A DNA stretch of 56,445 nucleotides from an uncultured Holdemania sp. (GTDB lineage Bacteria > Bacillota_I > Bacilli_A > Erysipelotrichales > Erysipelotrichaceae), in assembly GCA_904395815.1 (NCBI GenBank), contig CAJFOC010000001.1, positions 1-56,445 on the forward strand, read 5' to 3'. Positions 49,951 through 56,445 of this stretch are shown here, one piece after another. Below the pieces are notes generated by a model. That model did no database searches. It saw only the letters and a program-made list of their open reading frames with translations, and was not told where the DNA came from. The first letter of the stretch is position 1, and the number at the start of each line of letters is the position of its first letter. A program made the position numbers and the translations under genes.

Positions 49951-50050
49951 AGTGAACCTGAAACTGAATGATATGTACCCCCTTTACTGGACAAACTCAG
50001 TGGAGGGGGTACATATCAAACTGAATGGATTCGAAGGGTTCACTTTTTTT
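49951..50050 (+). terminator. terminator-like nested inverted repeat
   Basis: AGTGAACC (49951-49958) pairs with GGTTCACT (50037-50044) and is followed by T6. Inside lies a second perfect inverted repeat (see repeat at 49961-50027). Confidence 0.75.
49961..50027. repeat. palindrome resembling paired IS3-type ends, flanked by a 10-bp direct repeat
   Basis: GATATGTACCCCC (49970-49982) and GGGGGTACATATC (50005-50017) are perfect inverted repeats. The left end continues TTTACTGG and the right (complement) TCCACTGA, so similarity extends beyond the perfect part. AAACTGAATG flanks both sides (49961-49970, 50018-50027). TGTAC-C-rich-GGAC ends resemble those of IS3-family elements, so a tiny internally deleted element inserted in the terminator is possible; this is inference. 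Confidence 0.5.
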
Positions 50051-50245: not shown

Positions 50246-50276
50246 TTGACTTTTTGTGATATTGATGGTATATAAT
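50246..50276 (+). promoter_or_regulatory. tracrRNA promoter
   Basis: TTGACT (50246-50251) and TATATA/TATAAT (50269-50276), 17-19 nt apart. Confidence 0.75.
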
Positions 50277-50279
50277 GAA

Positions 50280-50408
50280 TTGCAAGGGACGCCTTGCAAG
50301 CACAGATCAATTTTTACAAGACTCTTTATCAGAGTCGCATCGAAAGATGCAACTGCAGAGCTCAGGCCCGACAAGTTTAAGCACCTTGTCGGGCCATGCT
50401 CTTTTTTT
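50280..50408 (+). ncRNA. tracrRNA: tracrRNA of the type II CRISPR system
   Basis: In order: a perfect 8-bp hairpin TTGCAAGG/CCTTGCAA (50280-50299); the anti-repeat 50298-50320, complementary to the sequence at the window end with one bulged base; a nexus-like hairpin GACTCT/AGAGTC (50320-50336); GCATC-GAAA-GATGC with a GNRA loop (50337-50350); and a strong terminator GGCCCGACAAG/CTTGTCGGGCC (50365-50395), extended by AGAGC/GCTCT, then T7 (50402-50408). It runs in the same direction as cas9. The 5' end is set by the promoter and not measured. Confidence 0.88.
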
Positions 50409-50487
50409 ATAGAAAATATGCCTGACTTACCATTTATTTCCTTCAGATTTATGCCATAATAGAAATTAAAGAAAGGAAATTATTATT

Positions 50488-53400
50488 ATGGAAAAAGAAA
50501 ACTACATCATGGGGCTTGATCTGGGTGTAGGTTCGGTTGGTTGGGCAGCAATGCTGATCGACGAGCAGAATGAACCATATCGGATTCTGGATTTGGGCTC
50601 ACGTATTTTTGATCCGGAAGGAGCGTCAATGGAAGACCGGCGGATTGCTCGTGGAACCCGCCGTGTTTTCAGACGGCGCAAAGCCCGGGTAACACGGACA
50701 AAAAATCTGTTTAAAAAATATCATTTGCTGACTCAGGAACAGATTCAGGCGGTGTATCACCAGACAGGAAAACCGATGCCTAGCCCTTATGCCCTTCGGC
50801 TGAAAGGAAAATCAGCATTGTTAAATGCCGAAGAATTGCTGATCGTTCTGGTTCACTATGCCAAAGGCCGGGGTTTTCGTTCCAATCGAAAAACGATTGA
50901 AGATGAGGAAACAAAAAAGGGAAAGGCAGCTTCTGCCAACGAGGAACAGAAATTGCTGTTTGCCAAACAACAGACAGAGGAACGGCTGAAGAGGATGCAG
51001 GAGGAAAATCCTCGGGCAACGATTACCGATTTACTTCTGAAAGAAGAAAAAGAAACGGGAAAACTGCGTAATACCTCAGGGAATTATATGCATGGAGTAA
51101 CACGTGCCATGATTGAAGAAGAGGTTCGGGCTATCCTTGATTTTCAGGTTCAGCAAGGACTGATCTGTGATGAATTCAAAGAGGAATATTTGAATATTTT
51201 ACTGCATCAGAGAATGTTCAGCGATGGACCGGATGAACCGAGCCCGTATCATAAACCGCTGGAAAAGATGATCGGGGTTTGCGGTTTTACCGGAATGCCG
51301 AGAGCTCCAAAATCATCTTTGACTTATGAGCTGTTCACTTTGGTTCAGAAGCTGCTGGATTTACGTTATCTGCCAGTAGGAAGCAAAGATCGCAAAGATC
51401 AGCTGCGGCTGACTGCAGAACAGATTGAGCATCTGACAGAGAAAGCGCGCCAAGGGAAAACCATTACCTATAAACTGGTAAAAGCAGAAATCGGTCAGCC
51501 AGTTCATTTTCCAAGCGTCAGATTGAGTCGTCAGGATTATTTTAAAGTGATGGATGACTTAAAACAGCATCCGGAAAAAGATCGTGATGAGGAGATGGAA
51601 AAGGCGAAGGAAAAGATCGAAATTTCCAAGCTGAACAATTATAACCGGCTTCGCAATCAGCTGAACAAATGTCTTGGTAAGGACGGTTATGAGTTGACGG
51701 ACAGTCAGTATGACATGATTGCGGACTGTCTGACGCGAAACAAATCAGACATTGAGATAGAAAAATACCTGGCCGGTGAGCGAACGACGTTGCTGGGGGT
51801 TGATCTTCCGGAGCCTGTAAAAGAAGCGGTAAAGAAGATGGAAGATAAAGGCTTTACAGAATTTGGTAAAGTTTCCTTTGAACTTCTCTATGATATTCTG
51901 CCGCTGATGATTCATCAGGGGTTGAATTACTATGAAGCCTGTCATGCCTGTGGGTACGATCATAGCCGCAAACATGAAAATACGGAGGATTACAGCGAAA
52001 TTCCGGTAATCAATCAGATTTTGGACGATCTTGATAAAACGATTACCAACCGGAGTGTCGTTCGAACGCTGGTAGAAACGCGGAAAGTAGTCAACGCTGT
52101 GATTCGTCAATATGGAAAGCCTTTCGAAATTCATGTGGAAATGGCTCGGGAACTGACCAAATCAGCGAAAGAAAAGGCTCAGCTGATTCAGCAGCAGCAA
52201 ACGAATCAATACACCAACGAAGCGCTGCGGCAGATTATCTATTCACAGCATCCGGATAAATTCCGTTCGCCTCAGGCTGTGAAACATGATGATCTTGTAC
52301 AATATCAGCTGTATGTGGAACAAAAAGGAATCTGTCCGTATACATTGGCGATCACCGGTGATGAAAATCAGGCGAAGATTCATGAGCGGGATCTGTTCAC
52401 CAAAGAAGTAGAAGTGGATCATATTATTCCGTATACGTTGTGCTTTGATGATCGCAATGTCAACAAAGCTTTGGTTAAAAAGCAGCGTAATCAGGAAAAA
52501 GGAAATCGGGTCCCGATGCAGTATTTCAAAGGTATGCCGGGAGAGGCGAAATATCGGTCCTGGATTTCCGGTAATTCTGCCATTTCCGGCGATAAGCAGG
52601 CACGGTATTTTGCGGAAAAAGTAGAAGAAAGTTTTTTGAATGATTATCGTGCCCGTACGATCAATGATACCCGGTATGCGACCAAGGCGTTGAAAGAGAT
52701 TCTGACTTTCTGCTTTCCAAGCGTTAAGGTACGGGCATATACTGGTCAGGTTACGGCAATGCTTCGCGGGGTTTGGGGGTTGAATGGACTCACTCATTCC
52801 TGGGATTCTTCGGATTATAAGGTGAAAAAGGAAGAAAATCCGGATATGTGGCCGCTGTATCAGCAGTTGAATGCCTTGCTGCTGGAGAATGTGGATAAGA
52901 AGGATAACCGCTACAAAAAGATTATTCAGGAAATAAATAAACTGAAGAAGAACGATGAGGTCAAAAATCGCGAGAATCATCTGCATCATGCGCTGGATGC
53001 GGTAGTCATTGCCTGTGCTACAGATAAAATGCGCCGTCGCGTTGAGATGCATGCCATTGCCAAATCACAAAGTTCTCAGGAAGAGATTCAGTTCCGGATT
53101 CCTGTTACGGATCCGGAAACGGGAGAGCTTTTGCGTTATGAGAATTTCTCCATGCCGAAATCCGAATATCGGGATACTTTGCTGGAATGGGAAGTTTTTG
53201 AGAAGTATCGCTTTCCAGTGCCTTACCAGGGGTTTGAAAAAGAGGCGATTGTCAGAACCTATGAACGGGATCCGCAGGTTCTTCGCAACACCTTATCGAT
53301 GATGCGAAGATATGATCATGTTGATCTGGATACGATTCATCCGATTTGCGTATCTCATTACTATTCCTCCAAGGTGTCCGGCCGTATGCATAAGGCAACA

Positions 53401-54150
53401 TACTATGGACTTAAGGAAACGGAAAAGGGTAAGGTCCTGACTAACCGTATGTTGATCAGTAAGGAAGAATTCACCGTCAAACAGTTGAATTCATTATATG
53501 ATAAGGACGGCACTCAAAAGTATGTTTTCTCAGCGGTAAAAGAATGGCTGGGGGATTATAAAAATGGTGCTGAGGCTTTCAAGGCTCATCAATTCCGGTA
53601 TCCTGAAAACAGAAACGGTAACCCAATCAAGAAAGTGAAACTGGATGTAGGAGAGCTGAAAGAAGAATTTGAAATTCACCCAGGACAATATGTGGAAAAG
53701 GAAAATGTTGTCCAGGTTCATATCTATCGAAGACAGGGCGATGATAAGCTGTATTTTGTTGGAATGGACAGATTTCGCGTGTTTAATGCGGATAAACGGG
53801 AAGATCTTTCCATTCTGTTGTGGTGGGGGCAAGGAAAGAACAATATCACAGTAAAAATGAATGAACTGGCGGAACATGGTTTTGTGGATAAGCCGCAGAT
53901 TCTGTATAAAGGTCAGACAGTTTTGCTGGAAAAAAGAGACGGAAGTAAAGGATTATGCATATTAAATGGCTGTACAAATGGGCTGTTAGAAATAAGCAGT
54001 ATATTAGGGGATGGCAGAGATTTGATTCAAAGTGGATTGAGTGCAAGTTTCAGTAAACAGTTTAGACTCACGGTTTCTACTATAAAAAAGATCACCCCGA
54101 TCAGTGTTGATGTTTTGGGAAAGATTCATTCTGATCTTTCCCGACTGTAA
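50488..54150 (+). CDS. cas9: Cas9 endonuclease, compact type
   Basis: 1220-aa RNA-guided nuclease. RuvC-I MGLDLGVGSVGWA has catalytic Asp11. An Arg-rich bridge helix follows at about 51-78 (RRIARGTRRVFRRRKARVTR). RuvC-II is FEIHVEMAREL with Glu551. The HNH domain VEVDHIIPYTLCFDD has Asp644 and His645, with Asn668 in QRNQEKGNR. RuvC-III is HLHHALDAVVIA with His834 and Asp837. All catalytic residues are present, so it should be active. HYAKGRGFRSNRK and SVVRTLVETRKVVNAVIRQYG resemble the II-C/SaCas9 branch more than SpCas9. CATAAT at 50455 may be its -10. Lower GC than the host. Confidence 0.97.
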   Translation: MEKENYIMGLDLGVGSVGWAAMLIDEQNEPYRILDLGSRIFDPEGASMEDRRIARGTRRVFRRRKARVTRTKNLFKKYHLLTQEQIQAVYHQTGKPMPSPYALRLKGKSALLNAEELLIVLVHYAKGRGFRSNRKTIEDEETKKGKAASANEEQKLLFAKQQTEERLKRMQEENPRATITDLLLKEEKETGKLRNTSGNYMHGVTRAMIEEEVRAILDFQVQQGLICDEFKEEYLNILLHQRMFSDGPDEPSPYHKPLEKMIGVCGFTGMPRAPKSSLTYELFTLVQKLLDLRYLPVGSKDRKDQLRLTAEQIEHLTEKARQGKTITYKLVKAEIGQPVHFPSVRLSRQDYFKVMDDLKQHPEKDRDEEMEKAKEKIEISKLNNYNRLRNQLNKCLGKDGYELTDSQYDMIADCLTRNKSDIEIEKYLAGERTTLLGVDLPEPVKEAVKKMEDKGFTEFGKVSFELLYDILPLMIHQGLNYYEACHACGYDHSRKHENTEDYSEIPVINQILDDLDKTITNRSVVRTLVETRKVVNAVIRQYGKPFEIHVEMARELTKSAKEKAQLIQQQQTNQYTNEALRQIIYSQHPDKFRSPQAVKHDDLVQYQLYVEQKGICPYTLAITGDENQAKIHERDLFTKEVEVDHIIPYTLCFDDRNVNKALVKKQRNQEKGNRVPMQYFKGMPGEAKYRSWISGNSAISGDKQARYFAEKVEESFLNDYRARTINDTRYATKALKEILTFCFPSVKVRAYTGQVTAMLRGVWGLNGLTHSWDSSDYKVKKEENPDMWPLYQQLNALLLENVDKKDNRYKKIIQEINKLKKNDEVKNRENHLHHALDAVVIACATDKMRRRVEMHAIAKSQSSQEEIQFRIPVTDPETGELLRYENFSMPKSEYRDTLLEWEVFEKYRFPVPYQGFEKEAIVRTYERDPQVLRNTLSMMRRYDHVDLDTIHPICVSHYYSSKVSGRMHKATYYGLKETEKGKVLTNRMLISKEEFTVKQLNSLYDKDGTQKYVFSAVKEWLGDYKNGAEAFKAHQFRYPENRNGNPIKKVKLDVGELKEEFEIHPGQYVEKENVVQVHIYRRQGDDKLYFVGMDRFRVFNADKREDLSILLWWGQGKNNITVKMNELAEHGFVDKPQILYKGQTVLLEKRDGSKGLCILNGCTNGLLEISSILGDGRDLIQSGLSASFSKQFRLTVSTIKKITPISVDVLGKIHSDLSRL

Positions 54151-54157
54151 ATGATGT

Positions 54158-55084
54158 ATGTCTTATCGATGCGTCATTATCCGGTCTGCGGATAAGATTC
54201 GTCTGAAAGACAATAATTTATGTATTCTTAATGAAGAAAGAGAAGTTACTGTACCCTTAGAAGATATTTCCATGATTCTGGTAGAGGATCGGAAAGCTCT
54301 TTTAACTGCGCGTCTGGTTGCTTCTCTTTCTTCGTATTATATCGGGTTGATTCTTTGTGATGAGAAAATGAATCCTGCCTCCATTACACTGCCTTTGCAC
54401 ATGCATTATAAACAGCTTCATGTATTTGAGCTTCAGATGAAAGTAAAAAAACCCATTTATTCTCAGTTATGGAGTTATATCGTAAAACAGAAAATACAGA
54501 ATCAGCGAAAAGTTATTGAACTGACCACCAAGGACGAATTTACCATTCGTAATCTGATAACACTGGAACACGAGGTCAAATCTTCCGATAAAACCAACAG
54601 AGAAGGCATTGCGGCAAAATCATTTTTCGACGGTTTGTATGGACGGGTATTTGTGCGGCGTCAAAGCGCTCAGGATGAAATCAATTCTGCCCTGAATTAT
54701 GGGTATACAATTTTGGCTGCCAATATGAGCCGAATTTTAGCCATGTATGGATTTAATACCATTTTAGGTATTCATCATCGATCCATGACAAACAATTTTA
54801 ATCTTAGTTATGATCTGATAGAACCGTTCAGAGCCTGTGTGGATTACTTTGTTTATAATCATCTGGATGACCTGGCTTATCCTCTTCCCAAAGATATCCG
54901 CTTAGGGCTGGTTAAATTATTACAGGAATCAGTTCGAATAAATAATCGTATTTATCGAATTGAAAATGCGATGGAAGAAATGGTTTTAAGCCTCATACAA
55001 GTTTTAGAAAATGAGGATTCCCGCATGCTGGTTTTACCTTTTGTTATTGAACCGGAAAGCATTGAAGATGAAGTCGAGTTATAG
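54158..55084 (+). CDS. cas1: Cas1 integrase, type II
   Basis: 308 aa spacer-integration nuclease. Catalytic residues by motif: Glu149 in NREGIAAKSFF, His206/His207 in LGIHHRSMTNNFNLSYD, and Glu222 in LIEPFRACVDY. It begins 7 nt after cas9 with no clear ribosome binding site, so is probably coupled. Very AT-rich compared with housekeeping genes. Confidence 0.96.
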   Translation: MSYRCVIIRSADKIRLKDNNLCILNEEREVTVPLEDISMILVEDRKALLTARLVASLSSYYIGLILCDEKMNPASITLPLHMHYKQLHVFELQMKVKKPIYSQLWSYIVKQKIQNQRKVIELTTKDEFTIRNLITLEHEVKSSDKTNREGIAAKSFFDGLYGRVFVRRQSAQDEINSALNYGYTILAANMSRILAMYGFNTILGIHHRSMTNNFNLSYDLIEPFRACVDYFVYNHLDDLAYPLPKDIRLGLVKLLQESVRINNRIYRIENAMEEMVLSLIQVLENEDSRMLVLPFVIEPESIEDEVEL

Positions 55085-55088
55085 GCAG

Positions 55089-55400
55089 ATGAGAGTTTTG
55101 GTGTTGTTTGATCTTCCCAGTGTTTCAAAAAATGAAAAGCGAAGCTATGTCCGGTTCAGAAAAGCGCTGATAGAGGATGGTTATGTTATGATGCAGTATT
55201 CGATTTATATGCGTTTCTGCCGGAATCTGAAAGATGCACAAAAACATATAGTCAGAGTTCAGGCAATAGCGCCAAAAGATGGGAATATTCGTATCTTAAG
55301 TGTTACAGAGCATCAGTATGAAAATATGATCTTGGTTATTGGAGAAAAGACAGAAACAGAAAAATCGGTTGGAAATGAATACGTGGTGATTATTGAATGA
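55089..55400 (+). CDS. cas2: Cas2, type II
   Basis: 103 aa from the ATG at 55089, the usual Cas2 length: MRVLVLFDLPSVSKNEKRSY has the conserved Asp8, followed by YVRFRKALIEDGYVMMQYSIY and a beta-strand end. An in-frame reading starting at 55011 would overlap cas1 by 74 nt and is rejected. It partners with Cas1. Confidence 0.95.
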   Translation: MRVLVLFDLPSVSKNEKRSYVRFRKALIEDGYVMMQYSIYMRFCRNLKDAQKHIVRVQAIAPKDGNIRILSVTEHQYENMILVIGEKTETEKSVGNEYVVIIE

Positions 55401-56353
55401 AACGACTGGAGTTTAAGTTTCAGGATCAGCATGTTCGATTGAACCTGGAACAAATTAATCTGTTTTTTGGCCCATCATCATGTGGCAAATCAACATTGGC
55501 AAGAGTTCTTGAAAAGGCCTTGGCAGGATCGGATAAGACGGTAAGTCTGGATTCTCAGCCGATTTCAAAAAATCAGTTTCAGGTGCGGTTGATTTCTGCG
55601 AATCAAAATATTGTTGATGAGCTGAAATTAGGATCAAAGTCCGAATTCAGCAAAATGTTCAAAAGAATGCTGACCGATTATCTGGATCTGGAACAGATGC
55701 AGGGACTGATCAGCCAGCTGGATAAAACTATGGAAAATCTGGAATCCATTCTTCAGCAACAACTGGCGTTTCTTGATCAGGCATATCCTGATATATTTCG
55801 GGGTAAATTTATTTTTGATGATCTGTTTTCTTTGATTAAAAGTCACTTTGTTATATTGAACTTGGATGGATTATCAGATTCAGTATTAAGAGAAATGTTG
55901 ATTCTGTCGATGATCCAGTCTGTCGAGCTTCAAAAAGAAAGTATTTTATTGATCGATGATATGGATGAGAAAATTGATTCCGGACAATTTATGAAGCTGG
56001 TAGAAAAAATGACAGATCATAAAAACTTGATGTGTTTATTGTTTTTGAAGAATCCAGAATTCATCCAATTAGTTATGAATCAATATCCTGTTTTTCTAAT
56101 GACAAAGAATTTTAAAAAACTGGATAACTATGTAGATCAAAAGATTACAAACTTAATGAGTTCAGATCTTTCTTATCCTGTCTTTATTGATCAGGATATT
56201 AAGATGATCAGGGACTCAGTAAATGAATTTATGATTCGAGAACTTCTTTCACTATTAGCCTCCAGTGATTACCAAATTTTAGAAAAAAACAGGAATAATC
56301 TGTGCAGTGACTCAGAAAATAAATGGAAATTTTTAAAAAATCTTATATCTTGA
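55397..56353 (+). CDS. Csn2-like fourth CRISPR protein with an intact-looking ABC-type ATPase motif set
   Basis: 318 aa. Walker A is FFGPSSCGKSTLAR (Gly25-Thr33, GxxxxGKST). An LDGLSDSVLREMLILS segment (156-171) is placed like the ABC signature. ESILLIDDMDEKID (181-194) is a Walker B with Asp187-Asp188, followed by a FMKLVEKM helix and the LMCLLFLKNP strand. Ordinary Csn2 is ~220 aa with a degenerate P-loop, so this is longer and may bind or hydrolyse ATP. It overlaps cas2 by 4 nt (ATGA) and precedes the array, the position of csn2 in II-A. It could be a divergent Csn2 or a distinct SMC-like protein; homology to Csn2 is not proven. Confidence 0.75.
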   Translation: MKRLEFKFQDQHVRLNLEQINLFFGPSSCGKSTLARVLEKALAGSDKTVSLDSQPISKNQFQVRLISANQNIVDELKLGSKSEFSKMFKRMLTDYLDLEQMQGLISQLDKTMENLESILQQQLAFLDQAYPDIFRGKFIFDDLFSLIKSHFVILNLDGLSDSVLREMLILSMIQSVELQKESILLIDDMDEKIDSGQFMKLVEKMTDHKNLMCLLFLKNPEFIQLVMNQYPVFLMTKNFKKLDNYVDQKITNLMSSDLSYPVFIDQDIKMIRDSVNEFMIRELLSLLASSDYQILEKNRNNLCSDSENKWKFLKNLIS

Positions 56354-56413
56354 TAGGGTAAAAGAGTCGAAAAAAAAAGGGAATTCTGAGGAAAGATATT
56401 GTTAAATAATAAG

Positions 56414-56445
56414 GAATCTTGTAAAATTGATCTGTGCTTAATCCG
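56414..56445 (+). CRISPR. first CRISPR repeat, cut by the window end
   Basis: CTTGTAAAATTGATCTGTGC (56418-56437) plus the next two bases match the reverse complement of the tracrRNA anti-repeat at 50299-50320, with one A missing. The AT-rich 56354-56413 would be the leader. Only the first ~30 bases of a normal ~36-nt repeat are in view, and no spacer. Confidence 0.75.

Follow-up and report, generated by a model that had tools for sequence, protein, structure and literature searches.

A Mollicutes-type Csn2 that retains a predicted ABC-type nucleotide site in the type II-A CRISPR locus of an uncultured Holdemania species

In reviews, Csn2 appears as a relative of P-loop ATPases with an inactive site. 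The locus described here raises the question of what a Csn2 does when that site appears to have been kept. It lies in 56,445 nucleotides of DNA from an uncultured Holdemania sp. (GCA_904395815.1, contig CAJFOC010000001.1), a stretch that is one whole contig and that we call the window. A preliminary description had noticed an ATPase-like protein encoded directly after cas2 and had proposed that it is an ATP-driven adaptation factor, an ancestral Csn2 or a new type II accessory protein. What part Csn2 plays in capturing spacers has remained obscure, according to PMC6620040.

The locus is a complete type II-A locus, with tracrRNA, cas9, cas1, cas2, csn2, leader and first repeat, arranged as follows.

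50246-50276, forward strand: promoter-like TTGACT...TATAAT, 5′ of the tracrRNA (predicted, from reading the sequence)
50285-50409, forward strand: tracrRNA with anti-repeat, stem-loops and rho-independent terminator (complementarity and fold)
50488-54150, forward strand: cas9, 1220 aa (TIGR01865, E=1.7e-159, full length)
54158-55084, forward strand: cas1, 308 aa (TIGR03639, type II Cas1, E=5.5e-80)
55089-55400, forward strand: cas2, 103 aa (TIGR01573, E=1.9e-23; PADLOC Cas2_II)
55397-56353, forward strand: csn2 with intact Walker A, 318 aa (PADLOC PDLC01597; top Foldseek matches are Csn2)
55469-55495, forward strand: Walker A, GPSSCGKST, residues 25-33 (K31)
55625-55642, forward strand: KLGSKS motif, residues 77-82, common to the ~300-aa Csn2 group
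55871-55894, forward strand: ABC-signature-like LSDSVLRE, residues 159-166, with near-invariant Ser160
55943-55969, forward strand: Walker B, ILLIDDMDE, residues 183-191, with near-invariant Asp187
56354-56407, forward strand: array leader (by its position between csn2 and the first repeat)
56408-56443, forward strand: first CRISPR repeat, 36 nt (sequence)

The tracrRNA anti-repeat (~50298-50329) is complementary to the CRISPR repeat at 56408, and the fold of the tracrRNA has a z of -4.8. As the preliminary description had it, csn2 is tied to cas2: its ATG start overlaps the cas2 stop as ATGA. Cas9 is mid-sized at 1220 aa, not compact. Two kinds of II-A system have been distinguished, one with a large Cas9 and a small Csn2 and one with a smaller Cas9 and a larger Csn2 (PMC4607530), and the window locus fits the second.

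The rest of the array lies on a second contig of this genome, C24, which starts with the final 87 bases of the window (56359-56445, C24 1-87). The CRISPR leader and first repeat are therefore where the contigs meet, and it was the array that made the assembly break there. With the repeat common to both contigs included, C24 carries 39 identical repeats and 38 distinct spacers of 29-31 nt. Since the repeats are identical, the array suggests recent spacer acquisition, and with a tracrRNA, cas9-cas1-cas2-csn2 and these repeats and spacers the CRISPR locus looks active. Segments of five spacers, searched for exact matches in viral contigs, gave no convincing target; a single 19-nt viral match to part of a spacer did not extend and was near chance level. 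Spacers 28 and 31 are close variants of each other, which suggests two captures from related targets, as judged from the spacer sequences; their shared part had no match in viral contigs. Similar hairpins (GTACCC..CTTTACTGGA....GGAGGGTACATATC) flank the CRISPR locus at 49969-50018 in the window and 2646-2686 in C24. A scan of the genome for the C24 hairpin pattern revealed no further copy, and the pair may represent terminators or a remnant left by an insertion.

Is the fourth gene a csn2? The PADLOC Csn2 profile PDLC01597 matched residues 7-271 of the protein (E=1.1e-13), while Pfam and NCBIfam scans returned weak generic ABC/AAA matches only, and PADLOC added weak matches to mads_8, PtuA and AriA. 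Neither the Csn2a models (PF09711, TIGR01866) nor the Csn2-St model (PF16813, Cas_St_Csn2) matched it; the positive controls, L098 for both Csn2a models and L145 for Csn2-St, did match. Sequence searches of the PDB returned ABC ATPases and no Csn2, with ABC-F, EcfA, SMC1 and Rad50 chains among the profile matches. The predicted fold pointed to Csn2. For an AlphaFold2 model (pLDDT 82.2, pTM 0.78), the best Foldseek matches in the PDB were 3zth (Stu0660), 3qhq, 3toc and 3s5u, with 6qxf also high; TM-scores to known Csn2 structures were about 0.5-0.58, and these structures ranked ahead of most ABC ATPases. The entry 3zth also came first for an earlier model whose alignment contained no Csn2-St or ~300-aa sequences. 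By hhalign, the subfamily profile linked to the Mollicutes type at 99.6%, to a ~300-aa Csn2 group at 98%, to Csn2-St at 91% and to Csn2a at a modest 71%, the comparison with Csn2a resting on profile-profile alignment because aligning Csn2a to the subfamily with hmmalign proved unreliable.

By predicted fold, profile and operon position, then, the window protein is a Csn2. The proposed homology to Csn2 is borne out by the best PDB matches of the model and by profile links to every large Csn2 group. The same evidence, together with the PDLC01597 match, led us to reject a new type II accessory protein: the gene is already catalogued in PADLOC, in a Mollicutes-type subfamily found mostly in Mollicutes and Erysipelotrichales. 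Mollicutes csn2 genes have been described only as csn2 (PMC6882279, PMC8725752, PMC10928387).

The motifs GPSSCGKST, LSDSVLRE and ILLIDDMDE are present in the 318-aa ORF where the preliminary description placed them, and their order is that of ABC ATPases. Its claim of an intact Walker A and B stands for Walker A; in Walker B, the place of the ABC/SMC catalytic Glu is occupied by Asp188, a residue that varies within the family. The GG of LSGGQ is missing from the signature, and sequence comparison revealed no H-loop His. In the model, a helical insertion lies between the Q-loop region and the signature, where SMC and Rad50 have their coiled coils. The protein thus resembles ABC, SMC, Rad50 and RecF ATPases in its motif order, P-loop, signature Ser and Walker B Asp, but differs from them in the missing LSGGQ glycines, catalytic Glu and H-loop His and in having neither a transporter nor a long coiled coil with it.

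We gathered homologs encoded beside cas1-cas2 from the window's own order, from Mollicutes and from other Bacilli, using Cas1 as the anchor in named genomes. A protein search with the window Csn2 alone against 84,980 named genomes returned no relatives, and phage and plasmid records held no convincing homolog. Within the window's order, a homolog occurs in only 4 of 311 genomes, and there subfamily members are well separated from ABC proteins (E at most 1e-67 for members and at least 1e-10 for ABC proteins). Of the named relatives, those of Dielma fastidiosa (L104) and a Traorella MAG (L090) are closest, and homologs adjoin cas1-cas2 in many lineages. The arrangement varies in places: csn2 is inverted and convergent with cas2 in several Bacilli (L173, L176, L185, L211), and L201 has repeats between cas2 and csn2. 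Three genomes of one mollicute family (L136, L140, L171) encode short proteins of ~255 aa after cas2 that matched no Csn2 group in profile comparison and are possibly a further Csn2 type, judging by their sequences.

Conservation was scored in 18 divergent homologs, 15-33% identical to the window protein. K31, S160 and D187 were each present in 17 of the 18, as was S/T32, with G25 in 16 and G30 in 15. Walker A was intact in 15 homologs, one of them with Ser for the first Gly, and only one of 228 eight-residue segments was as conserved, namely the Walker A stretch itself. Since K31, S160 and D187 each persist in 17 of 18 homologs at such low identity, the motifs are not due to chance. The residue after the Walker B Asp was D in nine members, E, Q, L and C in two each, and G in one. 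In other Csn2 proteins, G-x4-G-K-[ST] was found in 0 of 59 (0/17 of the ~300-aa group, 0/36 Csn2a, 0/3 Csn2-St, 0/3 short mollicute proteins), and profile alignments revealed that the Walker B Asp position is degraded in other Csn2 groups as well. On these alignments, the unusual feature of the protein is the putative ABC-type nucleotide site that its subfamily has kept.

The known groups differ in how much of this site they share. Mollicutes-type Csn2 proteins belong to the same subfamily and lie beside cas1-cas2, and four of six sampled members have an intact Walker A; they are longer (~360-407 aa), only ~15-20% identical to the window protein, and have IDQ or FDC at Walker B where the window protein has IDD. 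Csn2-St resembles it in size and in a csn2 gene directly 3′ of cas2, and its PDB entry was the closest fold to the model along the whole length, but Walker A was missing from three sampled members, in which the position reads GHNQRKLWQ or similar. Csn2a (3toc, 3qhq, 3s5u, 6qxf) shares the modelled fold, a collinear profile match and the operon place; it is shorter (~220 aa) and lacked the motif in every sampled sequence. The strongest link outside the subfamily was to the ~300-aa group (PDLC01599, PDLC02129), which has a K-L-x-x-K-S motif in common with the window protein and a vestigial G-x-N-x-x-x-K at Walker A. There, Walker A was degraded in all 17 sampled proteins and the Walker B acid mostly lost. 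This group is large (L149, L159, L162, L164, L166, L172, L174, L182, L193), and four members scanned had no Pfam or NCBIfam match.

Some members of the subfamily have lost the site. The Dielma fastidiosa homolog, an intact ORF, carries G25N, G30Y, K31M, S32N, S160N and D187R; the window and Traorella proteins, to which it is most closely related, keep all six residues. Dielma deviated at 6/6 nucleotide-site columns compared with 7/52 other conserved columns (Fisher p=4e-5, with site columns picked after alignment and the other columns mostly hydrophobic positions, loosely scored). Two mycoplasma homologs have lost G30. The joint loss in Dielma implies that both Walker motifs and the signature Ser behave as a single unit. 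In ABC ATPases, two subunits are established to sandwich ATP between them, and we infer by analogy that this joint behaviour fits such an arrangement here. Since Dielma keeps an array of 12 perfect repeats, ATP would not be needed in every lineage; to judge from its sequence, the site is dispensable in some.

These losses bear on the suggestion of an ancestral Csn2. In an unrooted Cas1 tree from which L198 was left out, the 17 Walker-family rows formed one side of a branch with moderate support (89/84), Csn2a fell on another branch (100/99), and both losses of the site were nested inside the Walker family. A first clade test that included L198 rejected a single group for the subfamily (p 0.014) because the L198 Cas1 falls inside; the csn2 position of L198 runs off its contig. 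A Walker site can be lost easily but is difficult to regain. For this reason, and because remnants persist in other groups, the intact nucleotide site is probably ancestral and was lost repeatedly, as far as an unrooted tree can indicate. The suggestion is therefore plausible, given degraded versions of the site in other groups and losses inside the subfamily.

How might the site be used? We think it likely that the protein forms an ATP-gated ring or clamp on double-stranded DNA ends, holding the prespacer for Cas1-Cas2, and that it keeps its ABC/SMC-type site with slow or absent hydrolysis. The ring or clamp would probably form on DNA ends as in other Csn2 proteins, and the prespacer would be held there for Cas1-Cas2. 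K31 of Walker A, D187 of Walker B and Ser160 would make up the site, with Ser160 predicted to contact the ATP held by the partner subunit. Subunits would close on DNA when ATP binds and open again on its release. Hydrolysis is probably slow, if it occurs at all, since the catalytic Glu is Asp in the window protein and is not conserved in the family. With a variable second acid, no GG and no H-loop His, ATP binding appears better supported than hydrolysis; binding, a sandwich dimer and a role in DNA loading are what we infer. The term ATP-driven in the preliminary description is thus too strong: the hydrolytic base is not conserved, and binding or gating is likelier than a powered motor.

Part of this evidence could also be read as decay. 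An ordinary structural Csn2 with relic Walker motifs would bind DNA ends as Csn2a does, its P-loop holding phosphate or nucleotide for stability only, and such a protein would explain why the second acid and the H-loop are not conserved, why Walker A residues are gone from three homologs and why Dielma keeps its array. Relics would be expected to drift, however, as they have in the ~300-aa group, whereas the nucleotide-site residues here are among the most conserved columns at 15-33% identity, and we consider this account unlikely. The opposite reading, a true ATP-hydrolysing motor like SMC or Rad50 that would supply prespacers by sliding or translocating along DNA, could draw on the ABC fold and motif order, on the helical insertion where SMC and Rad50 have coiled coils, and on the ability of Asp to replace Glu in places. 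It is very improbable given that the catalytic Glu is missing in 16 of 18 members, with Q, L, C and G among the replacements, and that there is no H-loop His.

We give almost no credence to the idea that the gene is not a csn2 at all, that is, an unrelated ABC- or RecF-type ATPase whose gene, of anti-phage or toxin-antitoxin kind, ended up 3′ of cas2. The generic Pfam/NCBIfam matches and the weak PADLOC matches would suit it, but the company of cas1-cas2 in many lineages, the wide gap in E values between subfamily members and ABC proteins, and the Csn2 structures that head the fold matches all speak for Csn2. The ATP-gated clamp remains our preferred reading.

The protein family is known; its retained nucleotide site seems to have gone undescribed. 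In the literature searched, Csn2 was nowhere connected with Walker motifs or ATP binding; Chylinski 2014, which PMC10310304 cites as having defined Csn2 types, may mention them. We tentatively propose, as a possibility somewhat short of even, that Csn2 arose from an ABC-type ATPase and that this subfamily is the ancestral ATP-switched form, in which ATP closes the ring on DNA ends in spacer capture, with Csn2a, Csn2-St, the ~300-aa group and, recently, Dielma having moved to nucleotide-free assembly. If true, a functional ATP site in a Csn2 would provide an on/off handle on the spacer-capture step and would reveal the origin of Csn2. Its loss could be tested directly in close relatives, with the site intact in the window and Traorella and lost in Dielma, and the retained nucleotide site makes the function of Csn2 directly testable.
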